Assembly: GCF_003073045.1 (NCBI RefSeq)
Contig: NC_037593.1
Location: 10,216,735-10,280,734, forward strand
Direction: 5' to 3'
DNA from: Pomacea canaliculata
Taxonomy: Eukaryota > Mollusca > Gastropoda > Architaenioglossa > Ampullariidae
Length of the DNA stretch: 64,000 nucleotides
Part shown: positions 3,719 through 63,109 of the stretch, one piece after another
Position numbering within the stretch: position 1 is the first letter of the stretch
Layout: the number at the start of each line of letters is the position of its first letter
Translations under genes and position numbers: made by a program
The notes under the pieces: generated by a model
Databases searched by the model: none
What the model saw: the letters and a program-made list of their open reading frames with translations, nothing else
Told to the model about the DNA's origin: nothing

Positions 3719-6700
3719 CAGGGTTCCCAGGGATCAGGGATGGTGCCAAAAAAGGACCTTAAAAGGACCTTTCATGCATTCGAAAGGACCTAAGTGACAG
3801 TCATCAATGCTTAAGTTTTTCTCTTGTGTGGTCGGAAAGATGTATTATTTATGAATCTGTGGTCTTCTCTATGTTCTCAAATACATGTATTTCTAGTAAT
3901 AAATAATCAAAGAGTTAATTTTGATGCCTGTCTGCCATATTTAGATTAGATAACTTAAAAAGTGTCCTTAGCGCGCTGATAACATACACTGTTAATGTTC
4001 CAAGTTTTCTAGAAATCTAAGTAATAATAATTGCAAAACCTGAAAGCCATTCTTTGGTGTAATACAAAAGTCAGTTCACGTGTCTCTCTCTCGCACACAC
4101 ACTCTAATGGGAAGAGAGAGATAGAAATAGAGCTATGCACAGTAGTACTAGAAGATCAAAGTTCAAGAAAGAGTAAGTTTCTAAAGAACTTTTGAAAAAA
4201 AGAGCGTTTTTTGCGAATACGGAAGGGCAACTAGTGTTGTACAGATGTGTAGACCAAACATTTTCTTGTGACTACAAGGAATGCCAAGGATTGGAGGATC
4301 AGATGAGGAATGAAAAGAGTGTGATCCTAATGCTAAACCAAAGATGGAATGAGTCGAAACTGTCAAGCATTACAGCCCATTTATTTTTAACCTTGAGATA
4401 TTATTTAAGCATTCTTATTACACATACATGTAACACATGCAAACATATACATAAACAGCATGATATACTAATACACATAAGATTAAGATTACAAAATGAC
4501 AAAGCAATCCATCTACTATAAGCAAAAGTTTCATTGATGAAATTCAATTCTTTGTCACCCCTACAGCTTTACCAATACTAAACAATACAATTTCTTTACA
4601 CAACCTAATTTCCTCTAAATAGTTCTGGTTTTTTAACATGTTCCATAGCATACATGTACAGAATTGTGCAGGCTTATTTAAACTGAAATAAACATTAATT
4701 CTGAATGTCACAATTCAACACCTTTTAATTTCTTCCTGTAATCTATCAATGTCTGACTGAATCTTTGTTATCTCCTTCTTCTTGTCTTTGGCTAACAAAC
4801 GCATGTTGTTAGATCTTTCAATAAGTGAAAAACTTTTTTGCTCTTCAGCCTGGAAACTATGTCTGTCAGCCAGTTCCAGCAGGTGTCGTTCTTCGGCACT
4901 GGTGGTCTTTAGCCTTTTTGTGAGTATTACCAGCTCATCTCCTAATCTCTTTCTGTGGACCTGCTTTTCTTCTGTTTCCTTCTGCTGCTTCTGCTCAGAG
5001 AGGTAACGTTCATACCTGCCATAGGCACTAGAAGCGGATATCATCAGTGGTTTGGAGATCTCAACATTTTCCACCCCTCCCACACTGTGAATATGATCAA
5101 GAATTACTCTGCGTGCTTTTAGTGCAGTCTGACTAAGATTGTCAGCTACTGTTTCTTTGTTGAATGAAAATCCTCTTTCCACTGTAGCTTGACCATGAGA
5201 GAGTAGGAGTAACTGTCTGACAACAGACCACAACACCTGAAACTCTGCTTTTCCAGCAAGGGCATCATAAAACCAACTATCCAGTCTTTGTGTCATAGGG
5301 TCAAAAGCCTTACTACCACACTCACCTGCAGAACTGTCAAGAAAATTACGGAACTCTGACAATACCTTGTCACAAGTCACATCATCAAACCTTTTCACAC
5401 CTTGGCAATACAACAAAACCTTTTTCATTTTTTGTATTGATTTGTCTTTTTCCCCCATGGTCTTTGGGTTTAAGAAAGTTATGTTTCTCACTAGGGTGTA
5501 CTTCAGTGGAGATTTATCCTGCAATTTTAGAACAACTGCTTTCAAAAAATCTCTGCATTCAGCTCTGAAGGCCATGAGAGTTCCATCGTTTACTGATGAC
5601 TGTTTCTTAGCTACAGCCAGTAGTCTATCAACCCTGAAGCAAGTTCGATCATGCTCAGATTGACATGGTTAGAACTGTTGCATATATCAACCTGCACAAG
5701 TTGGAGGGCAGTTTCACATTTATTAAGTACATTTGACTTGATAAATTTGTGCATCAGATTTTTCATAATGTCATGTAAGTCTAAACAAAGGAAAGGAAGA
5801 AGAGGCTGATCAGCTTGGTATTTTCTCAAAAAAGGTTCAAGTATACTGGCAATTAAACTAAAGAAAGCCAGACGACATGAAAGCAAAGGGGTAGATAAGA
5901 CTCCAGCTTTTACAATATCAAAAGATTTGTTCTTTGGCAATGTTATTTTTTTCTCCATTGCAGCTTTGACAAATTTTTCCAAGTATGGAAGCATAACAAT
6001 TGCTTTTTCAGCAACAGAATTGTTTTCAAGCCATCGGTGAGCACAGAACTTGGCTGGAAAAGATGTGGAACCAGTTACTTTTATATAATCTTCTCTTCTG
6101 GCTGGGCTGTCTCTGAACAAGATATAAGCAGATGTAAGAAATGACTCAAGCTCCCATTGAGAAGCCTCGCACCCACGCCTAAATGCATTGTGCATAACAT
6201 GGAGTCCACAGCTGCCCACATTTAACAAACCAACATTGTGATTGGTAATCATGTCATTATTAATTTTCTCAAGAAGGTTTAGGTTTACAGAAGGTCCATC
6301 CATAGAAATTTGAAGTAAATTAGCTTGCTTGAAGTTTGATTCGCTAATTACCTTACTGAACTTTTGTTGAAGGTCTATGGCCGCGGAATGACCCAAAAAT
6401 TCCGAGGTCAGGTAATGAGTCCTTACAGCATTGTCACTCCAGTAACGAACATGGAAATCCAGCTGTTTAGTTTGAGTCTTATGGTTAGAAGATTCATCAA
6501 ACAAAAGAACATACTCAGGCGACGAATTTACACAGTCCAGAAGCAATTTCGAAAAGTGAGGAGCAAGCCCAAATGAAGTTAGATAACTGGCTTTTGTTTG
6601 ACCGCACTTAAATTCTGCAGCTACTTGGCTGTCTGGGAACATAAGTCGAAACAGTTCAGCAGACTTTTCAGCAGATCTGAAACTGTAGTGTGATTCCACA

Positions 6701-7997
6701 ATCTTGAGAGTCCACAGGATCTCTGCCTTCAATCGTTCATTGCTCATCACGAAACCTATTCAAAGAAAACATTTAAGTTACCATTATGTCTGTAAACATT
6801 ATGTTCTGTCTGAATAAAAGACAGGTTTCAAAAAGCAATAATTAATGACATGATAATATAAATAATACTAAACTAAGTTAAAGTATAAAGATGGCAGCAT
6901 AGTTGAAAATGAAAGTTATTTTCAGCTAACTGATTTAGCTTTAATGTTAAATTGTTTGATTTTAAAAATCCAAAAAATAATGTATTTGCTGGTAAAATAG
7001 GATAATAAGCATACATTATTAATTATACTTTCTTTTTAATCTTTCCTGATCAGATGCCAAAAATTCAGATCAATTTTCTGCAGCAAAGCTGTAGTAAGAT
7101 TCGTGATTGTATAAAACTCTATTTGTAGTTCGAATCATGAGAAAATGAAAATCTCAACTTTTTAATTTAAATAATTCTTTGCTATTTACTGATCTTTAAG
7201 CTATTGGCTTCACCGTAAATTAGACGATAGGCTTAATAAAGAGTGGAAAAAAACCGCAAAATGTTATGCACGCTTTAATTTAATGTGTTTTTCTAAGTAC
7301 CCACATCGTTAACTAAATGAATCGCTAAAGATAAATAATTGTCAACTTACTGGACACACTTGCAGAGCTGGTCGGTGCCGTCTGATTTTGAGCGGGCTGT
7401 GGATGTTCTCGATGACGAAAGTAATCAGTTACACAAAAGCGCGCATCTTTCAGAAATACTTTTATTTGCCTTTGGTGTCTTTCGGTAACCATGTGCTGTT
7501 TCAGAACACTTTCGCCCATTGATGAAAGATTCAGAGATATTTTTGCAGGCAGCACATCGTGCCAAATGTTTATTGCTCGAGTCTTTTATTAACCAATCTT
7601 TATACTTGTCTTCCTTTAGCCACTTCTCCTGAAAAGAGCACTTCCCCGGCATCTTTCAAATTGTTAAGCAGACAAAGAAATGTGGTCGACACGACGAGAG
7701 TGAACTCGCGAACGGCCGAAACGGACGTTCCCGCCGCGAGCGAGACTGGGTAGTCATGTGATTAAAATAGCAATGCAGCGAAAAATCGTCGGTATTTTGC
7801 GCCAAAGTCTACTCCGGAAATAAATTTGTTGTAATATTTTATCGATAAAAGGACTTAAAAGGGTCACAGAGAAAATGTAAGGACCTGTGTGAGAATTTGA
7901 AAGGACCGCATGGCAAATAAAAGGACTTAAAAGGCCTTTTGGCGAAAATTCAATATAAAAGGACTTAAAAGGACCTTGCAAGGACCTGGGAACCCTG
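3719..7997 (-). mobile_element. hAT-like DNA transposon, 4.3 kb
   Basis: Terminal inverted repeats CAGGGTTCCCAGG at 3719 and its complement ending at 7997 bound the element. The flanks share the 6 bp TGGATG (3713-3718 and 7998-8003) and not a clean 8 bp duplication. Both ends carry repeated subterminal AAAAGGACYT blocks (about 3757-3790 and 7849-7985), as expected for transposase binding sites. The transposase runs on the minus strand. It is intact in layout, with only two visible frameshifts, so insertion looks fairly recent. Confidence 0.85.
4715..7652 (-). pseudogene. hAT-like transposase, two exons, frameshifted
   Basis: The reading starts at 7652 (MPGKCSFQEKWLKED) with a BED-like zinc finger: CAAC near 7560, then a QHMVTERH segment. 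Exon 1 ends at 7351 with donor GTAAGT. A 595 bp intron follows and exon 2 starts at 6755; the joint keeps phase and reads SVSSFVMSNERLK. The body continues to about 5611 and then, in another frame, to 4715. The C-terminal part holds HGQATVERGFSFNKE, the hAT dimerisation signature, followed by a charged coiled coil. Two breaks are visible: one extra A in an A-run of the zinc finger (near 7545) and a shift between about 5610 and 5670. The lesions are few, so an intact relative may exist elsewhere in the genome. The superfamily call rests on the C-terminal motif and the CAGGG ends. Confidence 0.75.
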
Positions 7998-15160: not shown

Positions 15161-18100
15161 ATGGAAGCTGCTGCGGGATTGTTGGAGGCACAGGTACAAA
15201 CCATCCTGTTAAAATAGGGAAAATTGCTAAAAAGTTAATTTTAGTACAGATTAAATGACGGTTAAGAATTATTTAAACAAATTTATCACCGATTATATAA
15301 TAAAACTATAATTTAGTTAAAATCCACATGTAATAAGCAGGAATGACAGTAGTAACACCTTTACATCAGGAAAATACGTCAAAAGGGAAAGTAGAACCAG
15401 AAAGAGGATGATGTAAAGATCAGTTTCTGATCAAGGCCTTTTGAAAGTATCAAGATATAGCTTTATGTATAATTTTTGTAAAGACATAGCTAATTAGTGC
15501 AGCCGTCCAACATGTGAGAACAGTGAACAAGGATAGCAGACACTCCTGACTACATACATACCTCAGTGTAAATTGCGGTATCATATGGAGCATTCATGCA
15601 GTGTTGAAGTTTCTTAGCCACAGAACGTACAAGCTACACACGAATTCATCTTTCTGCCTGTCATATCGAATGAGCCATTTTCTCTTGCATACCTTCAGCA
15701 AAACTCCCTTGTTTGTATTTATATTTGTGTGTGTTAAGTTTATTGAGATTATGTGGAACATCTGTTCATGTTATTTATGTACGTTTTAAAATGAAAATAT
15801 TAAATGTTTCCGATGTGGGTTTTTCCCCACAGTTTCAGAAAGCAGAATCAGACTTAAATTATCTTTCTCGAAAGTTGGAGCTTCGATGTCAAAACTATGC
15901 AGAAGGAGACTGCAGAGTGAGTCTATGTCATGAGTTATATAGACAGATTTCTTGCATATTCGAAGTACACATGCATGTTCTTAGGTGTGCATGAACTTAA
16001 GAATGAAATGTTTAGTTATAAACAATATGTTTGATACCTTCAACATTTTGTGGAGTCACCAAATCAATAATTACTCTTTTTTCCTATCCCACAAGGATGA
16101 TTATTTATTGTGGTGACTGGCTGAATTGCCAACACTTGCTCCTTAATTTTTTAATGTTTCAAACACTTTTTCTCATGAGCTTCTCTCCTTGTGCAGAAAA
16201 ATCCCATGGAGCTTCTTCAGAAGCTTAAGACTGTAAAGGATCAGTACAAATCTTTAGTGCAAGAAGCTGCAGAAATCCAGAAAGCTCAAGCTGTAAGTTC
16301 TGACCATTTAGCTGGACAAAGCTCATTTTCTTAGTGATCACATTACAAACAGTGAAGAAGATTTCAGACAATGATTAACTTTTGTTCTTAAAACATTACT
16401 CAGAACCTTGTTCTAAAGATGAAAATATCTTAGTACACTGGTTATCTAGTATTTTTTTTAGAAAGACTGGTAAAATTCCTTCAAATGTTAAAATGTTCAC
16501 TGTAGCTTCTTGTTGATTTTTTAGGAAGCTATGGATTATTTCCGGATACAGCTACCAATTGTAATGCAGTTACTGCAGGAAATGCAGGCTCAGACACAGA
16601 TGCAGGTCAGCATATATGATTATGGAAGATCATCATTATCATGTGTTTATATGTACTGGAGACTCAAAGGCTGATGTTTGATGATGCAACTCATTTCTTG
16701 TCAGCAGTGAAAGGTTAGGGTGAAATATTCTATCTTGCTAGAGAAAGAGGCATAATAAATCACGTTTATTAATCACAGAAGTCCATGAAATCAAAAGAGA
16801 AAAATTTGAGAAAATTCCATTTATATTTTTAGACATTAATATTTCACCCATCTAGGCAAAACAATCCCCGCAACAGGGTTTGCTTCTAGTTACATATCTT
16901 TAGCTTAGTAATCTTAGAAATTACCTGAAGTAAGCTTGACTGCCTGCTGTGTATGTAGCAGTAAAGGAGGACCCAATGCGTTAATATGTATGTTTTGTAT
17001 GGAGATCATTTTCACCGGGTTGCCAGAGTAATTCCGGAAGTGTCACACCAATATATGCTGATGATTTTTTAATATTTTCATAGCACCGGTGATTCTTGCT
17101 ATCTTTTTTACCAATTCCTGCACTGTGTTATTGACTGCAACTATATGTTTGTTATCAATAATTTGGCAGGGGGGTGAAGGAACTAGAGCGAAAATTGAAG
17201 AGCTTCAGAATCTGCTTGGAGCTGAGCTACCATCAGCAGCATTCCAGCCACAGTCTGGGAAACTAACACCTGTTGACAAAATGCCCACAAGTCCCAGCAA
17301 CCACACATCAATCTCTTGTGTGCAGGAGGCTGACCAAGAAAAATGTGAAGATTCTTGTGATAAAAATGAGGTAGACAATAATCCAGGTAAGTCTTTGTGT
17401 AGAAGTGGGGACAAGGAGTTTATGTTTACCACAGCATTTGCCTTCATTCTCAAAATTCTTTAGCACCTGTATTGTCATTTTGACAAGTGCTTATTATGTC
17501 CTTGTTACTCTTCAGACTCTTGGGATGTTAAGGAACTGGAATAAATATTAGTCTGCTTCTTTGTATTGTGTTACATATGTAGTTAAAGTCACAGACATCT
17601 CTGGATTCTATCAAGAAAAGATTCTAACAAGCTTTAAAATATAATGTATCTTGCCATCTCCAAACTACTGAATACAAAAGCAGTTCTGCAGTATTTAAAT
17701 ATCCTTATTCAGCCCTCTATCTTTGTCTGCATCTTAGAAAAGTAACAAACATGGGTTTCTCTCAAGAGCTTTGTTTTAATCTTCGGCTAGCTGGGGGCAG
17801 TTGTACATGTTATGTATTGATGGAAACAATATTTTTTGTGTACGCATGTGCTTGTGTATCTGCCCGTTTCTGCCTTGTGGAATGTGCGTACACATTCACT
17901 TGCATGTTGCAGTAAAAGAAGATCCTGTAGTTCTGCAGGCTATGATGCGTGCATCTAGCAAGGGATTTGTTGAAGTCAGTTTGGAAGAGTTTGAATCTGT
18001 CTCTGAACTGGTTCGTGGACGTGTCAAGTTGGTGGATGTTAATTCTGTAAGTTTGTGGATGTTAGTTCTGTAACTTGGTGGATGTTAATTCTGTCTGTTG

Positions 18101-19673
18101 GGACTTACAGTCACTTCCTACTCCCCTACCACCCTTTCCTGGTCAAGACAAGAGTGAGTTTATGCTCCTATCTGGCATTCAACTGTTGCATATAATTAGT
18201 AAAATCTCTGTTGCTATTTTCATCATTTTAAAATATTTCAACATTATTTCACCTAATGTTTACAAAGCAAAACAATCTCAAATCGGATAACTCAAATTGA
18301 AGTGCCAGACACATTTTATTTTTAAAAAAAAAAACCTGCATAGTTTTGATAGTTTCATTTATGACAGACTCAGATTATACTTGGCCAGGATTGGTAATTT
18401 TCACCCATCTAAAATTTGTGCTACTGAAAAAGGCACAGTCTGCTTCCTGTAGATCCTGTAGATAAACATACAGACAACAGCACTTTGACCTTTGAATCAA
18501 ATACAGAATTATCCTGGTTTGCTTGCAGACATACAGAACTCTTTGGAAACACTTCAAGGAAGGAAACAACAGGTATCTATATCTCACCTTCATTTATGCT
18601 GAATATCTTAGTGGGCTTGGCATGTATTGACTCAGTTTATCTAAAAACAATTCAGTAATGATACCTTTTTTTTTTTCAATGTACAGTGCTCTTCTCTCGG
18701 TGGCAGACATGCACAAAATGGGTCTCCGTGTTTCAGGAGCCACTGGAAAAGCAAAATTAAAGGTAGGTGTGGATCACCCACCCTTCATCCTGCATTACTG
18801 ACAAAGTGTGAAGAATCTTCTTTTGAAATTGTTTGTTTATACGTAACATAAGTATCTCATCAGTCTTCGCAATTGGTGAACATGATACTTTGAAAGCATT
18901 TTATTTCCTTACTATTTCATTTTTTTTAAACCAAAGTGCTAGGAAGTTATGAAACCAAAGTTTTCTGATAAACCCTCAACAAATTAATCAAATGAATGTG
19001 TTTCACTCGCATACAACATCTGTCTCTTTTTTTTTTTTAATAATGTGCATATGAATCGATGTAAATGCTGTTTTATATGAGCCATGTATGAATGATCAAC
19101 TGAATCATGTCCCTTTGCTTCTTGGCCTTGAAATGGCTTTTTTTGTTGTTTTGTTTTGTTTTTGTTTTTGTTTTTTTGAATTGATATGTTGTGATCTTGG
19201 TTTTCATCTGTTGTTTCATTTTTGTTTGTCAAAGTGACTGTATGAAATCAGTGCAATGTGGTCTATCCTCTCTGCCTCCTATTCATATGGATCTAAGCAG
19301 CTGATGAACAGTTGTATCTACAAATAAAACTTTTTTGAATATCAATTGATCTGCTTTTGTCAGATTAAATAATGACTTATGAGCAGCAGATCTGCACTTT
19401 GAGCTGTAGAACTGTGACTTATCAAAACTTGATCTGAGAAAAGATGCTTCACCACTGCATTTACTAATCATAACACATCATTGTATCCTCTTGCACCTAT
19501 TCCTCCATTGGTCTTCTGGCCCCTTTAAGTTACCATTAGTAGTGTTATTAGCTGCTTTGACAATGCTCTTACGGATGTTGAAGGGCTCATTGAATTGTTT
19601 TGGGTGTTTCTAGGTACTGAGATCACTTAAGCTGATAACCATCTCCTCCAAAGAGGAGGTAAAACTGGTATGA
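15161..19673 (+). CDS. SKA2: Spindle and kinetochore-associated protein 2, long form
   Basis: Nine exons, all in phase: 15161-15193, 15833-15916, 16197-16292, 16525-16605, 17170-17386, 17913-18046, 18529-18572, 18687-18762, 19614-19673 (TGA). The product is 274 residues. The N-terminus (MEA...[16 protein letters not shown]...KNPMELLQKLKTVKDQYKSL) aligns with human SKA2 ([22 protein letters not shown]...KNPVTLLKEL). This is the coiled-coil part that assembles with SKA1 and SKA3 to hold microtubules at kinetochores. Human SKA2 stops at 121 residues. Here a linker (about 99-170) leads to an extra domain (about 171-274) with GFVEVSLEEFESVSELVRGR, SVADMHKMGLRVSG and ITISSKEEVKLV. It resembles the SKA1 winged-helix microtubule-binding domain around EFNSIPQYMKGRLTYDQIN. 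The exon model is solid; the domain match is my reading. Confidence 0.92.
18029..18097. repeat. Triplicated splice-donor segment, 3 x 23 bp
   Basis: Three 23 bp units (18029-18051, 18052-18074, 18075-18097) of the form TTGGTGGATGTTAATTCTGT repeat the end of SKA2 exon 6 and its donor. The first carries GTAAGT, the second GTAACT and the third GTCTGT, so the copies become weaker as donors. Confidence 0.85.
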
Positions 19674-27330: not shown

Positions 27331-30300
27331 ATGAATTTTCGGACCATAATGCACATGTATGGTAAGCTAAAGACACAAACACTCATTTTTTACTACGTAA
27401 TATGGTTATTATTCTAGTATATGTGTGTATACATGAAACCACATTATCGTCTGTTTATGAACCAATGCAGCAATTTTATTTTCATGAAGAGTTGCAGATT
27501 GTGGTCAGAAGATTAGATTTTACTTAAGAATTGAGTGGTTGATTGTAAATAAACTAAATATATATGACTTGATTCAGCAGGCTTTACATGGTCACATGTG
27601 GTCCATGGCCTGAAGAATCAGTCAATGCAGCAAGGGAACAAACCTATTCGTCAGGTGCCTTCATGTTCCCGGTTCAAATGGCTGAGCACACAAACCTCAA
27701 CAGGACCTCCACTAAACAGCCTTTCAGACCACCAGGTATCATCCTCAGAACATAAAGAAAATCAGGAAATAGGAAACATCCGTGGAGTTGGCCGCAATGA
27801 GGGTAATTATTAATAAGTGACTGGTTCTCAAAATCATTATCCACAATTGTTAATGGCATGGTCCTGTTTCCTAGCTCTAAGCACCAGACGTGCAGCAGAG
27901 TTCTGTACTCTCTGGAGTTTGTGAAGAAGGTATTTAGAGCAGCCAGCAAGCAAGGAGTTGCAGTAATCAAGTCTGGATAAAACAAACGCACAGACAAGAG
28001 TGTGTGTAGATAGCATGTGATGGATGGCACTGATCTTGCGTATCTCATAATCGGCAGATTGACAGACAGCTGTAACTTGTTTAGTAAGAGTCATAGTTAT
28101 AGTTATGGGATAGCAAAATGTATTTTCACCCCGTAGATGGATATATGGTATAGAACAATCATCTCCCCCTCCCTTGTTGCAATATGTTTTGTATGCATGT
28201 GTATGTCATATAGGTCTAATGCACTTTAACATATCTCTAACTCATCCATCAGTTGTAATAGATAAATGCACTGTTTTTATCATTTTTCTGTGCTTTACTT
28301 ATCTTTATTTTTAGATAGTATATAACAGAAAATCAAGTAAAACTTAAACTGATACAATATATCAAACAAGAAAAAATTAGATGTCATCTCAAAATATTTG
28401 AGAATCTTTTCCCAGATGAACAAATCTCAAGACTACTTCTTCCACCTGATCAACCTGCTGATGCCCGAATATTGCGGGTGGCCATTATAGGACTGCCCAA
28501 CTCAGGGAAATCCACCTTAACCAACAGACTTCTGGGATGGCGGGTATTGCATGTTATTACAATTATTATGTCTTATTATTAGTAGTATTAATTATTATTA
28601 TATAGTAGGCATCATTTTATTGTATAATTTTGCAGATTAGTGTAATGGGCATGAGTATTATTTACACACATCATAGTCTGTTTAACCTTTGCATGCATGT
28701 CAACACAATATTTACAACTATGTTCAAACACATGCACAAGCCCTCTCTTTTTTTGTGCTGTGGATTATTACGCTGTTATTAAGAATAGTTTTGTTTTTTA
28801 GTTGTGCAGGAAAATCAAATCTTTCTTCTATTTTATCTAAATTTTCTGGCTCAACTAAAAAACTCGAGCAAAATTCCCCCCTCCCACCCACCATCTAAAA
28901 AGCACACAGATATACCTATGTGCATGTCTACTGCAAATTTGGAAATTTCAGACATTCACAGCAAGTCTGTATGTTAAAGATATTTTCTTTCTAATCCAGG
29001 TCTCCTCAGTGTCAAAAAAGGTCCACACTACCAGGAAAAATACCTCAGGCATCATGACACAAAGCAATGTTCAGATTGTGAGTGTAATGTAATGAATTTC
29101 TGGTGCTACTTGTAATATTTAGACATTAGGAAGAGACTGCAAGACTGCAATGACATCTTTGTGTTTGTGTGTTTGTGGATGCATTTGCTTGTTGTAGTCA
29201 ACCAATTTCTAAAGAAACAGGGTGTCCCACTCGGGGCTGACCCTTGAAAATTTTGAATAACTTGGGAACGTGTTGGGAAGGTAAGTTGTAAGAACCTGAA
29301 CATAATTTATTTAATGCAAAACAAGTCTACATGAAGGAAGATGCTGAAAATCTCCTCCCCCAACATCTGCACTCAAGGCAATAGAACGCTCAATTATTGT
29401 GATTGTCCTCTGCAACATGTCACTGACGTGGTATGGCTTGATTTTCCCTGGCAGCTCATTGACAGGTAGACTTTGAGTACCCACTTTCTTGAGTAAGCGA
29501 CATATTGATTTTTGGGGGAAATTTTCCAAAGGGTCCTTAATGTCTTGCACAGTCTCATCAGACATGCGAGGTCATCACCACAATACGGATCCACCAGGAT
29601 TCCTGTCTCATCCCACCTTTTGGACAAGTTTTTGATGGTGTTCTTGCTAGGTGGAGTTCTTCCTTCAAATTTCTTCCGATATTGTCACTGACACTGTGTT
29701 ACGGACCATGTGACCCAGTACGTAAAACGCTCTCTGTGGTACTTCATGCTTGCTTTCACCACTCTGCAGGAATGGAGTCTAGGCGTTAGTCATCTGTGCC
29801 ACGCCATGATGGGCTGGCGCTTTGGAGCCACCATAGCAGCACTCACTACTCTACTGCCTCTTTATGACAATTCTGCATTAAATAAGAAATATTTTGAGCC
29901 TTGTTGCATGATGTTAAATGCACATGTTGCAGAGTGATATGCATTTTTAAAGGGTCAGCCCCCAAGTAGGACACCCTGTATAAAACTTCAAAATAAAGAA
30001 CTTAAACTGATTATATCTTCATCAAATGGATAGCTAACAAGAACTTAAAAGTCAGGCAGACTTTGGTTGACATGGAAAAAAATTTATGTTATTTGCATTT
30101 TTTTTCACTGTACATTATTTTTTAATGGATCTATATAATTAGAGAATTTGAGCTAGATAAATGTGAATTCTCGTTCTTCTAAGAAGGGTTTGTTATCTGT
30201 TAACTGAAATATTTGGTAATCGGTTGGTTACCTTGTAGTCTATAGATGAGATTTTTTTGTTAATTTTTATGTTTAAAACTTGTCCATTTGTAACATTACT

Positions 30301-33300: not shown

Positions 33301-35340
33301 CAATATGACACAAAACAGCGCTGAATCGCAAGTGGTAAGTTTAATCATTTACAGTAATGCTTGTTTAAAATGCATTTGGTATTCATAATAATAATATTAC
33401 AGGTTATGCTTTGCAATATATTATCCATAAATACTGTTTAAAAAAATAATGGTGTGTTTCTCTAAATGTATGATGTATTGATGTATTACATCACTCAGAG
33501 AGGGTACTTGAAGGAGAGACAATTTCACTTCTCCCAACGGAGCCAGAACTACTTTCTACAAGAGCAAAAGATGCAAAACCATCAGAAAACGGAGAGGCAA
33601 AAGTGTCTGCAGAGCAGCAAGACTGGACAGATTATTTCAAAAGGGTTCAGCAGGCTCGCAGGGCAGTGCGCAACTTGAAAGGATGGCCACACTTCAGTCA
33701 CGTCTTCATGGTTTCAGCCCTGTCAGGAGACGGGATCGCAGATCTCAAAGTAAAGTTTTCACCTACTTATAATTTACTTCCTAATTGTCTCTCTGTCAAA
33801 CAGAACTCATATGAACTGGATTTACATAGTCTGTACGTCTATCTGGCCTTGGTGAGAGGGTTACCCAATATGTAATTTGAAGATCAGAAATGATGGCACT
33901 TGGGTTTGTCAAGCTCTTGTACCGAACCATTTTTCACAATTTTCACCAACTCTTAGATTAGATGCTGTTGAATAGAGATAGGCAGTGGTTAGGAAAATAT
34001 GTAGCATTCTTAAGGTAGTAGCTGTGGGTCAGTGAACTAGGATTGTATGTTTACTTTCATACGAAATACATCCTTTTCCCATTATCATCAGGTATCCTCA
34101 CGCAAGGTCATTAAAGAAATGACATTGATATGCAGTCTTTAAACTACTGAGACCCAAAATATAACACACTCCTAAATATAATGCTAATGAAAGGTACTAC
34201 TACTGATGTATTCCCAGGACTTTCTCATCAAAAGTGCTCATCCAGGTGATTGGGACTATCACAGTTCACTGGTCACAACCCAGAATCCACAAGAAGTGGT
34301 ACTGATGTGTGTGCGTGAAAAACTGCTCGAGCATTTGAAGGATGAGGTCCCCTACATTCTAGATCTGGTAAGTATCTCCAGTAGCTGTAATGTGGTGGTG
34401 CTGATGCTGGCATCATAACTGATTATTGTTTTGTCGACTGGAAATTTTATCACAGCTTTTTTATTTTTGATGCATTCCTGCAATTATCAAAACCAACACC
34501 AGCTCAATGCCAACACCAAAACATGTCATTGCTGCCATTTGTGTGAATTTTCAAAGTCTTAGTCATGCAAAATGATCCTGGTGCCATTTCTTGTGCAAGA
34601 TATAGTACAAAAGCATTTAGTATACTTGAGGGCGGTCCAGTATAGTTCTGATTTAGTTAACTCTTTCTATACTACAGTTTGCACCCATGAATGTGAACAT
34701 CATCATAGTTCAATTGCATCAATACACTCATATCAGACTAGTTAAAAAGTTTATTACACTTCTATGTGGCAACTATAATCACAACAATCTTGTCTGGACA
34801 GGACATGGTTCTATGGGAAGTTGATAAGGATGGAATTTTGAACATCATCATGAATGTCATAGGTTTCAACAAGCGCCATGTGGTATGAACATCTTCAACT
34901 TTTTTTTTTTTTTTTAAACAAGGGGTGCTGGTGTGAGGCTTGGAATCTACACAGAGATGACTAGTTTTGGCTTCCTCTCTAAACAGAATAAATTAAAATT
35001 TGATGTTCTGCATCATTAGAAGAGCTTTAATTTGAAGAATACATTATCATAAACTTGCACTTGTTTATAAAAATTGTCCTTTTTTTTAAATATCTTTAAA
35101 ATATCCTTTACTAGAAATATAGTGTCCATTTTGTGAAATGAATAATAAACGATTCAATAGTGTCCATTTCACCATAACTTTTTTGTCTTTGATTGCCAGG
35201 GTTTTCTCCTAAGGCATCAAGGGAAAACAATTCAGACAATTGCCCAGGAAGCAAAGCAGGAAATGATGAACACATTTCGTTGTGAGATACGGCTGAAATT
35301 AATTGTTAAAATGACACCTAAAAAGCGGCGTAGCCTGTGA
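27331..35340 (+). CDS. ERAL1: Era-like mitochondrial GTPase
   Basis: Twelve exons, all in phase: 27331-27361, 27581-27735, 28319-28543, 29000-29077, 30303-30349, 30836-30897, 32226-32338, 32856-33060, 33499-33749, 34218-34367, 34802-34882, 35200-35340. The product is 512 residues (human 437). The N-terminus is basic and lacks acidic residues over its first stretch ([12 protein letters not shown]), fitting mitochondrial import. GTPase motifs: G1 GLPNSGKS (120-127), G3 DTPG (167-170), G4 NKVD (236-239), G5 SALSG. The C-terminus aligns with human ERAL1 ([43 protein letters not shown]) and is the KH domain. ERAL1 binds 12S rRNA in small mitoribosomal subunit assembly. Between G4 and G5 there is a long charged insert. 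The KH loop reads LRHQGK where human has IGPKGH, so the first Gly of GxxG is Arg. Confidence 0.93.
27836..28094 (-). mobile_element. LINE fragment (reverse transcriptase C-terminal part)
   Basis: On the minus strand it reads [20 protein letters not shown] and then [16 protein letters not shown], the region just after the RT palm in CR1/L2/Jockey-type non-LTR elements. It lies in ERAL1 intron 2 and is 5'-truncated. The same family occurs at 47720-48560. Confidence 0.75.
29218..29978 (-). mobile_element. Tc1/mariner-like element remnant, 761 bp
   Basis: Inverted ends of about 36 bp start CAGGGTGTCCYACT, with an inner arm GGGGCTGACCCTT, at 29218 and mirrored to 29978. Inside, minus-strand frames keep a helix-turn-helix stretch of transposase type ([18 protein letters not shown]-like, SPQKS-like, RRL-like). 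The coding part is short and broken into two frames (29311-29627). I could not see a clean TA duplication, so the family is tentative. It sits in an ERAL1 intron. Confidence 0.6.
30943..31795 (+). mobile_element. hAT element remnant, 853 bp, in ERAL1 intron
   Basis: Ends are CAGGGGTGGGCAAA and its complement, with a perfect 8 bp target duplication GTTTAGCT at 30935-30942 and 31796-31803. A GC-rich palindromic GCGGCCCGCGGGCCGC block follows the left end. A plus-strand frame at about 31378-31592 keeps the transposase C-terminus ([28 protein letters not shown]), the hAT dimerisation region. The rest of the gene is deleted. Confidence 0.9.
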
Positions 35341-47700: not shown

Positions 47701-50700
47701 TAATATTTACAGTAAAGGTGCATTTTCAGCTCACATTTAAAGGATTCAATAGTGAGTAGGTGGCAGATATGGAAAGGGAGAGAGTTACATTGTTTTGCTG
47801 CACGTTAACTAAAAATCCTGTGGCCATATGTCGTTGTTCTGGTGACAGGAAAAGATGATCATCACATGAGGAGTGCAGTTGTCTAGCTGAAATGTAAGGG
47901 AAGAGCCGTTCAGAGAAATAATCAGGGCAGGTGCCAGCAAAGAAATTAAAACACAGCACAGATAGTTTGTACTGGATGTGAGAATGAATGGGTAGCCAGT
48001 GCAAAAAACAAAGTAGAGAGGTGGCATGGTCCTGTTTCCTAGCTCTAAGCACCAGACGTGCTGCAGAGTTCTGTACTTTCTGAAGTTTGTAAAGAAGGTA
48101 TGCAGGACAGCCAGCAAGCAAGGAGTTGCAGTAATCAAGCCTGGATACAACAAACGCACAGACAAGTGTGTTGGTAGCATGCGTAGACAGAATGTGACAG
48201 GTGGCGCTGACACACAGTCTGCGTCCTATAAGTGAGATAGGAGTTGAACAACACTAGTGCAGGTCCAGAAATCCCTTAAAGGGTGTGTAGTCTATGAAGG
48301 AGCAGAGAGTGGTCAATTGTGTCAAATGCAGCAGACAGGTCCAGTAGAGTTAAGGCAGAAACATCACCACTGTCAAGGGCAGATAATATGTCGGTGGTCG
48401 CTTTAATTAGTTTCAGTACTGTGAAAAGGTTTATATGCTGACAGAGCATATAGGGGATGAGCTGGTGCTCTTGTAAGTAGGACTAGAGCCGTGTCAAAAC
48501 TACTTTCTCTATGATCTTTGAGAGAAAAGACAAGTTGGAAACTGGGCGATAATTGTTCAATACCTTGACATCAAGCATGAATTTTTTAAGAAGTGGTTTC
48601 ACCAAGGCATTTTTAAACAGAGATGGGAAAATACCTGATGACATGATGACACTTACAATGTTTGTGATGGCAGGAAGTAAAATATCTAAGCACCCAAGAA
48701 GAAGACTTGTGGGTATTGGATCTAACTGGTAAGTTGTTGGCTTGGCTTTCAGAATAATCGCCTTTATATTGGATTAGTGCAGTATCAGGCTCCAATGACT
48801 ATAATTTAACAGTGTTGAAAAAAGGACATTATCAAGAGTGAACAGTAAAAAGTGACTTTGTGATGGACTTTATAAACTTAAGTATTCTTTGTTAGCAATG
48901 AAACTGAAAATTAACAAACTTTACTTTTAGAATATTTGTTAGAGTTGCTAATTAGTAACTTTCGGTATTTATGTTTTTCTTGAACAATTATCATAGAATT
49001 TTATTAAGTATTTTACAATATTTTTGTTCATATAATTAAATGTATACAGGCCTGCAAAAGGGGCAATTAGATGTCTTGTTTTGTAAAGTAAAAGAATGCA
49101 CAACTGTCCAGGCAACTACGTGTTCGTGTCTGTGAATGTTCAGTGTGGTACTATTATTGTGCATATTATGCCTATCCACTGCATGGGTCTTCTAAATTTA
49201 AAATGCTTGAGCAATTTTCTTTGGTAAATACGTCTACTAAGATTAACTTCTAGAGGTATATACATTAATGGTGGTGTATCTCTAGTGGCATTTAATATAT
49301 TTGCATGGTATACATGCCTGAACATTTAGCTCTCATCTTTAGCTCAACATAGTACCCCTCCACAAGAATCCAACTTAAAAGGTCATAACTCAATTACACC
49401 ATACTCACTTGCAGTAAAAATGGCAAAAATCATCTGGAGGGAATCGAAAAAGAGAAACATGATAAGCAGAGATGCGGAGGCTCCAACAGGCAAGAACATG
49501 GCTTGGCAAGTGTCAATGGTCTGCATTTCTGTAACAAAAATTGAATCTTTAGATACATTCATCAGATTTTGCAAAATATTTGCACAGACAGGCTAGCAAA
49601 CAATGGAAGCAGTCTAGTGGTCTGAATACTGGCATTTGAACCTGGAGGCCCTCTGCTTTGACACCCATGTGGTGCAAGCCCACAAGCCACCCAGCCGTTG
49701 GAAATGGTAATGGACTCATCCGAGTACTGAGGGACCCATTGTAAAGATAACATTCAGTTAACTAGAGCACCAGGCATAGGAAGATAAGAAAACATAGGGT
49801 AGCAAACTGACAAAATTGCAGAGTACCTATAACTTAATAATAATAAAATTTGTAAAGAGTGTTCCCCATGTTGATGCAAGTTTGATGCTTTGAACACAAA
49901 AGACTATTAACTATCCAAGAATTGACTATCAAAGAAACATAAGCTTCAGCAAATAAATGACACAAACCAAGTGCATGGATGAAAATAAAGAAGTGAGGAT
50001 TGAGTGGAAAAATATGCTTGATTATGTACAATATCTCTCAAAGAAATTGGTTTTGAGCCCTGCTTTGAAGGCTTTGAATGCAGACACAGTCTGAAGAGAA
50101 AGGAGAACAGAAAACCTAACAGTAGGGCCCAAGAAAGAGTGCTGAATTTCTCCAGTCTAATGTGTGGCATAGTTAGGAGGGCAACATAAGCAGACCAAAT
50201 AAACCAACTTGAGTGGTAAGGCATCAGTTGCCCAGACAGGTATGCTCAGGTATGCCTTCAAGACAACAATATCATGGTCTATTGTTGTAATCAATGCAAG
50301 CTCAACTGGCAATCAGTGATGTTCATGGAGGAGGGGCGTAGTATGGTCTGCTTTTCACCAATGGAAGACAATATGTGTGGCATTATTATGAACCTGTTGA
50401 AGTATGTCCAGCAGGCAGTTAGGGAGATCAATGAGAGTTGGAGTAATCCAGCTGAGATAACGCAAAAGCAGACATGAGGTTTTTGGTAGAAGAAAATGAT
50501 AGGAAGGGTCAAGTAAGATGCGACTGATCCTGCCAAGCTGAAGGAAGGTGGACATAATAGACTGCATTGATGTAAGATTCAGAAATAACAATGAGTGAAT
50601 TTTGGACAGTTTAGGAAAAAGAGATGTTCACCCCAGAAAAAGTAAAAGTAGCAGAGGATGACACATTTCAGTTTATTTGCAAAGGCTACTGAAATGACCG

Positions 50701-62546: not shown

Positions 62547-63017
62547 TCACAACGGCAAGAAACTTCGAAAAGAACGAGTTCGTCGGTGACGTTTGAGAAT
62601 CAGACGCGCTGTCTCCTGGAAAATCGATGTTAGTCCCTGGTTAATTTTCGCCGAGCATTCAAAGTACGCCTTGGCTCCGATTTCCAAGGCGACCTTTTGA
62701 CCCTCGTCGTAGCTAACGGGGCGTCTGTGGCTAGGGCTGGCAGGAGACTCGCTGAATCTCGACTCCTCCGGGAGGTTGCCGGGGACCGAAGGATCGAAGA
62801 ACGTCGAGCGGAGGTCGGATTTAAGCCCCAGCAGCAGGATGGGCACCTTGGCCAGGTGAGTGCGCACCTCAGGTAGCCAGAGGTTGGAGACGTTGCGCAA
62901 GCTGCTGTGACTGTCCACGGAGAAGCAGATGAGGATGACGTCAGAGTCCGGATACATGAAGGGGCGCAAGTGTTCGTAACCCTCCTGACCCGCTGTGTCG
63001 AACAAACTAAGCATAAT
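62547..63017 (-). CDS. Atypical Rho-family GTPase, last exon
   Basis: An acceptor (TTTGTTTCAG) precedes position 63017, and the exon reads 156 residues to TGA at 62549-62547. It starts in the middle of the G domain: G3 is DTAGQEGYEHLRP, followed by YPDSDVILICFSVDS, G4 as LGLKSDLRS and G5 as FECSAK. The Rho-type pattern (LRPFMYPDSDV, SNLWLPEVRTHL) and a long insert region (about 20 residues rich in Ser and Pro before VSYDEGQ) place it with Rho GTPases. The end is basic (LKRHRRTRSFRSFLPL) with no CAAX box, so it is not prenylated in the usual way. RhoU and RhoV also lack a standard CAAX, but I cannot assign it to them. The exon with the P-loop and switch I lies beyond 64000. Confidence 0.85.
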   Translation of the reverse strand: MMLSLFDTAGQEGYEHLRPFMYPDSDVILICFSVDSHSSLRNVSNLWLPEVRTHLAKVPILLLGLKSDLRSTFFDPSVPGNLPEESRFSESPASPSHRRPVSYDEGQKVALEIGAKAYFECSAKINQGLTSIFQETARLILKRHRRTRSFRSFLPL

Positions 63018-63109
63018 CTGAAACAAAACAAATCAAAAAACGAGTGAACTGCGCGTCCGTAACACATACGAACATCAGCGAAGCAAACTAAAAATAGCAT
63101 CCAAAAATA

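Follow-up and report, generated by a model that had tools for sequence, protein, structure and literature searches.

The window, meaning the whole stretch of 64,000 nucleotides of Pomacea canaliculata DNA that was analysed, holds a SKA2 gene at positions 15161-19673 on the + strand. SKA2 is a protein that assists chromosomes in staying attached to spindle fibres. As predicted from the DNA sequence of this single species, the gene has nine exons, every intron is GT-AG and all joins are in phase. Its frame begins with an ATG at 15161 and when spliced comprises 825 nt, encoding 274 aa followed by a stop. The original prediction had joined exons 5-9 (17170-19673) in phase to the SKA2 exons, and the same nine-exon, 274-aa frame was recovered in our analysis. 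The exons are as follows, with residue limits that were calculated manually from the length of each exon:

15161..15193, + strand: exon 1, residues 1-11, with the start codon
15833..15916, + strand: exon 2, residues 12-39, within the SKA2 profile match
16197..16292, + strand: exon 3, residues 40-71, within the SKA2 profile match
16525..16605, + strand: exon 4, residues 72-98, where the SKA2 profile match ends
17170..17386, + strand: exon 5, residues 99-171, acidic linker without a family match
17913..18046, + strand: exon 6, residues 171-215, where DUF3161 starts, with the SKA1-like motif at 192-214
18529..18572, + strand: exon 7, residues 216-230, DUF3161
18687..18762, + strand: exon 8, residues 230-255, DUF3161
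19614..19673, + strand: exon 9, residues 256-274 and the stop, end of DUF3161

The first part of the protein belongs to the SKA2 family by profile. Residues 4-98 match Pfam SKA2 (PF16740) over profile positions 3-96 of 110 with an E-value of 4.6e-19 and 68.7 bits, above the curated cut-off of 30.1, and this match and exon 4 end together. Human SKA2 has 121 residues and consists of a coiled coil only, whereas the snail SKA2 continues for 176 residues more beyond residue 98. The genome was searched over 440,159,624 bases in 24 contigs, with the window lying on contig C4. All eight matches to the spliced protein at E<=10 fell on that contig at 10232561-10236404, equivalent to window positions 15827-19670. 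No second copy of the SKA2-DUF3161 gene was found in the genome by this first-look candidate search, which distant copies could escape and which also failed to bring up the genome's SKA1. A genome-wide search for the SKA2 family returned four weak matches, two of them in the SKA2 gene and two elsewhere, none over the cut-off. The two elsewhere (L006 on contig C2 and L007 on contig C5, with E-values of 0.243 and 0.456) are possibly other coiled coils.

Several other features were seen in the window. Downstream of SKA2, an MMR_HSR1 GTPase frame (28319-28579, + strand, E 1.4e-6) appears by eye to be part of an Era-like (ERAL1) gene, which perhaps reaches about 33.8 kb; a frame at 33474-33872 had no Pfam match at 1e-3. 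A Ras-family GTPase frame lies at 62550-63032 on the - strand (E 1.3e-27). Also on the - strand, two long open frames of 317 and 382 aa at 4718-6759, with no Pfam match at 1e-3, resemble by eye an uncharacterised transposase-derived gene. C-terminal remnants of LINE reverse transcriptases were recognised by eye at 27677-28205 and 47729-48773 (both - strand), and the frames of these putative remnants (27840-28205 and 47729-48253) had no Pfam match at 1e-3. Rfam gave no match on the window.

The predicted extension of SKA2 is a real and specific domain addition, DUF3161, at about residues 190-270. An extra C-terminal domain on SKA2 had been proposed by the original prediction and is borne out by the match of exons 6-9 to Pfam DUF3161 (PF11362, E 1.8e-9), in which residues 195-265 pair with profile positions 11-81 of 83, 71 with 71 and colinear, crossing three introns. 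With the extension alone the E-value is 6.3e-10. The scores of 38.0 bits for the whole protein and 39.5 for the extension exceed the curated cut-off of 25, and most of the profile is covered. Because an independent family matches across them, exons 6, 7, 8 and 9 and their joins are supported. Removal of exon 9 from the extension lowers the DUF3161 score from 39.5 to 28.6 bits, a loss of 10.9, and exon 9 therefore belongs to the gene. Residues 215-274 on their own match DUF3161 with an E-value of 8.2e-4 and 19.9 bits, below the cut-off of 25, while residues 171-214 on their own matched no Pfam family, SKA1 included. By these profile results the extension is primarily a DUF3161 domain, a family that the original prediction did not name.

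DUF3161 is described in Pfam as a domain of unknown function, and no paper dealing with it by name was found in the open-licence literature. The family entered Pfam earlier than mollusc genomes became common. An exon-by-exon search of the genome for DUF3161 was uninformative, as it gave no match, missed even the SKA2 gene and gave no signal in its 14 controls. The NCBIfam search of the extension gave no match, and no relatives were found in bacterial and archaeal genomes, where none of 146 pattern stretches was confirmed, as expected.

Exon 5, which lies between the two parts, has no Pfam match. Of its three frames only frame 0 is open, with two stops in frame 1 and many in frame 2, and its GC content is 0.46 as compared to 0.35 and 0.37 in the flanking introns, which are 564 and 526 bases long. 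The stop-to-stop frame around it extends for 132 codons (17065-17460), and when the bases of 15194-19613 were shuffled 1000 times, 22 of the shuffled sequences contained a + strand frame as long as this. On the basis of phase, splice sites and the open frame only, exon 5 likely links the SKA2 and DUF3161 parts; its in-phase joins to both make a single protein likely. The alternative would be two adjacent genes, a short SKA2 whose end would lie near exon 4 or exon 5, followed by a distinct DUF3161 gene. Such an arrangement would fit with the lack of homology support for exon 5, with joins between exons 4, 5 and 6 that were predicted from DNA sequence alone, with the AATAAA motifs in introns 4 and 5 (16754 and 17540), and with the SKA2 profile match stopping at the exon 4/5 junction. 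However, GT-AG sites and in-phase joins are present throughout, exon 5 is open solely in the frame required, and the introns on either side are short. We regard two genes as very improbable and a single gene as much the likeliest arrangement.

An ordinary SKA1 domain is encoded separately in the same genome, at locus L009 on contig C13 (E 7.8e-40), and was assembled over that domain. By eye, the intron before YMKGR at this locus seems to have a GC donor, the nearest GT donor breaking the frame. As this clear domain belongs to a separate SKA1 gene, the SKA2 extension does not replace SKA1. With a real extra domain on SKA2 and a separate SKA1-domain gene, a picture of two modules in one complex is therefore possible.

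The original prediction had likened the added domain to the microtubule-binding domain of SKA1 and had proposed a search with the SKA1 profile of Pfam; the extension scored 12.5 bits in that search and the whole protein 15.1, both under the cut-off of 29.6. SKA1 was the sole family besides DUF3161 listed for the extension (E 0.13, 24,736 models) and the third of five listed for the whole protein (E 0.021). Similar E-values were obtained from unrelated families, namely DUF4659 on the coiled coil (0.044) and IglE_N on the SKA1 domain (0.024). The SKA1 E-value is notable if taken to test a single hypothesis stated in advance, but a claim of membership fails on it. SKA1 was absent from the Pfam list, from which filters drop weak matches, once the 16 leading residues were removed, and DUF3161 was not listed by Pfam for the SKA1 domains of this genome, human or worm. 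A search of PDB sequences with the extension gave seven matches, the best with an E-value of 0.071, and none was SKA1.

A small SKA1 profile was built from the genome's own SKA1 domain at L009 and from the PDB domains of human and worm. The best local match to it, with a score of 35.0, placed residues 192-214 (VSLEEFESVSELVRGRVKLVDVN) against the beginning of the SKA1 domain (LTTEEFTNVPNYMKGRITYPQIN in this genome). In ungapped comparisons with this three-domain profile 4 of 20,000 shuffles reached 35.0, and in the gapped test none of 1200 reached the observed score. By hhalign against SKA1, one shuffle in 1000 reached the score, with the program's own probability being just 4.3% and global mode giving P 0.3; by hmmsearch, 82 of the 19,804 shuffles reported (20,000 were made) did so. 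Among the 1248 open reading frames of at least 30 residues in the window, the exon 6 frame ranked top at 36.3, some intron included, followed by 31.3. The similarity does not run along the whole domain and is confined to the 23 residues 192-214. Residues 213-274 scored 13.0 against the corresponding part of the SKA1 profile, the shuffle mean being 14.5, and 881 of 1200 shuffles were as good. Of the stretches originally singled out as SKA1-like, FESVSELVRGRVKL lies inside the 23-residue motif that stands out from shuffles, while SVADMHKMGLRVSG and ITISSKEEVKLV fall in residues 213-274 and are no better matched than those shuffles. An attractive full-length hand alignment of the extension with SKA1 (LWKHF-LYHRF, VADM-EADI, VLRS-ILRH) was dropped after failing the shuffle test. 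The SKA1 resemblance of the extension is suggestive rather than established.

Structure prediction was carried out with single-sequence AlphaFold2 and gave poor models for residues 171-274 (mean pLDDT 41.5) and for residues 187-274 (mean pLDDT 56.5). The low-confidence model of 187-274 has the order strand, helix, helix, strand, helix, strand, strand, strand. Foldseek searches with both poor models returned no PDB match under E 0.001, and SKA1 chains were absent from the best 50 of 143 matches for 171-274 and from all 21 for 187-274.

The DUF3161 domain is basic, with a pI of 9.85 and 16 K+R versus 10 D+E, and is preceded by an acidic stretch (residues 99-186, pI 4.49). For comparison, the pI of the SKA1 domain is 9.70 in human and 9.23 in this genome. 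According to PMC3923297, human SKA1 binds tubulin via R155, R236 and R245 together with two lysine clusters, and joint mutation of three arginines, R155 among them, weakens microtubule binding. When mapped by hand, R207 aligns with human R155 inside the motif. R236, R245 and the lysine clusters fall outside any significant alignment to the extension; because the best local alignment ends at residue 214, the clusters K183/184/203/206 and K217/223/226/227 are without a supported counterpart.

The predicted product runs from a coiled coil through an acidic linker to a basic C-terminal DUF3161 domain. It is moderately likely that this domain is related, distantly and in shortened form, to the C-terminal winged helix of SKA1, and that it was retained from a common SKA ancestor and is missing in human SKA2. 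Kinship with SKA1 is the more likely reading, but its basis is one short motif. The other reading accepts one real protein and takes DUF3161 to be unrelated to SKA1, the EEFxxV...GR motif being convergent or due to chance. It would account for the absence of SKA1 signal in residues 213-274, for SKA1 domains that are not listed as DUF3161, for the hhalign probability of 4.3% and for the lack of Foldseek support for a SKA1 fold from the poor models. However, the motif outscores nearly all shuffles, opens each of the two domains and comes from a subunit of the complex that also contains SKA1, and we consider an unrelated domain rather unlikely. It is less probable again, in our estimate, that the domain is SKA1-like without binding microtubules, serving as a docking or dimerising winged helix on, for example, SKA1, SKA3 or Ndc80. 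Winged helices are also involved in protein-protein interactions, as noted in PMC3923297, and the microtubule-binding lysine clusters of SKA1 find no supported equivalent here; yet the DUF3161 domain is as basic as that of SKA1, and the hand-mapped equivalent of R155 is kept.

The explanation that we consider best overall, with the chances for and against it evenly balanced, is a SKA2 carrying a linker and DUF3161, a distant relative of the SKA1 domain that would act as an auxiliary tubulin contact. This contact would be made beside the SKA1 domain, on the same three-helix coiled-coil core, and is the step of which we are least sure. PMC3923297 describes human SKA2 as showing no crosslinks to tubulin. 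The C-terminus of human SKA3 also contacts microtubules and the SKA1 domain, as described in PMC5036024, and therefore offers a precedent for auxiliary contacts on another subunit. SKA1, SKA2 and SKA3 are termed paralogues in PMC6927755.

As a tentative extension of these ideas, somewhat doubtful in our view, an ancestral SKA subunit would have combined a coiled coil with a C-terminal winged-helix tubulin-binding domain that was kept as DUF3161 in snail SKA2. The microtubule would then be held by the complex through domains of two kinds, with four in each dimer, and human SKA2 would represent what is left after truncation. If true, the grip on spindle fibres may be divided between two SKA subunits in the snail, and a second C-terminal domain would stand beside the SKA1 microtubule grip in the SKA complex of some animals. 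DUF3161, whose function Pfam gives as unknown, would thereby gain a place and a function open to testing, and the finding would bear on the divergence of the three paralogous subunits and on possible losses in human SKA2. No title or abstract opening in the open-licence literature concerned a C-terminal domain of SKA2. SKA evolution is reportedly the subject of a comparative paper by van Hooff and others.

Compared with the microtubule-binding domain of SKA1 (PF07160; PDB 4c9y, 4ca0 and 2lyc), the DUF3161 domain of snail SKA2 is shorter, scores under the Pfam cut-off for SKA1, and beyond its motif cannot be aligned above chance. The two are alike in the 23-residue N-terminal motif and in their basic charge, and DUF3161 is placed as in SKA1, at the C-terminus after a coiled coil and linker.
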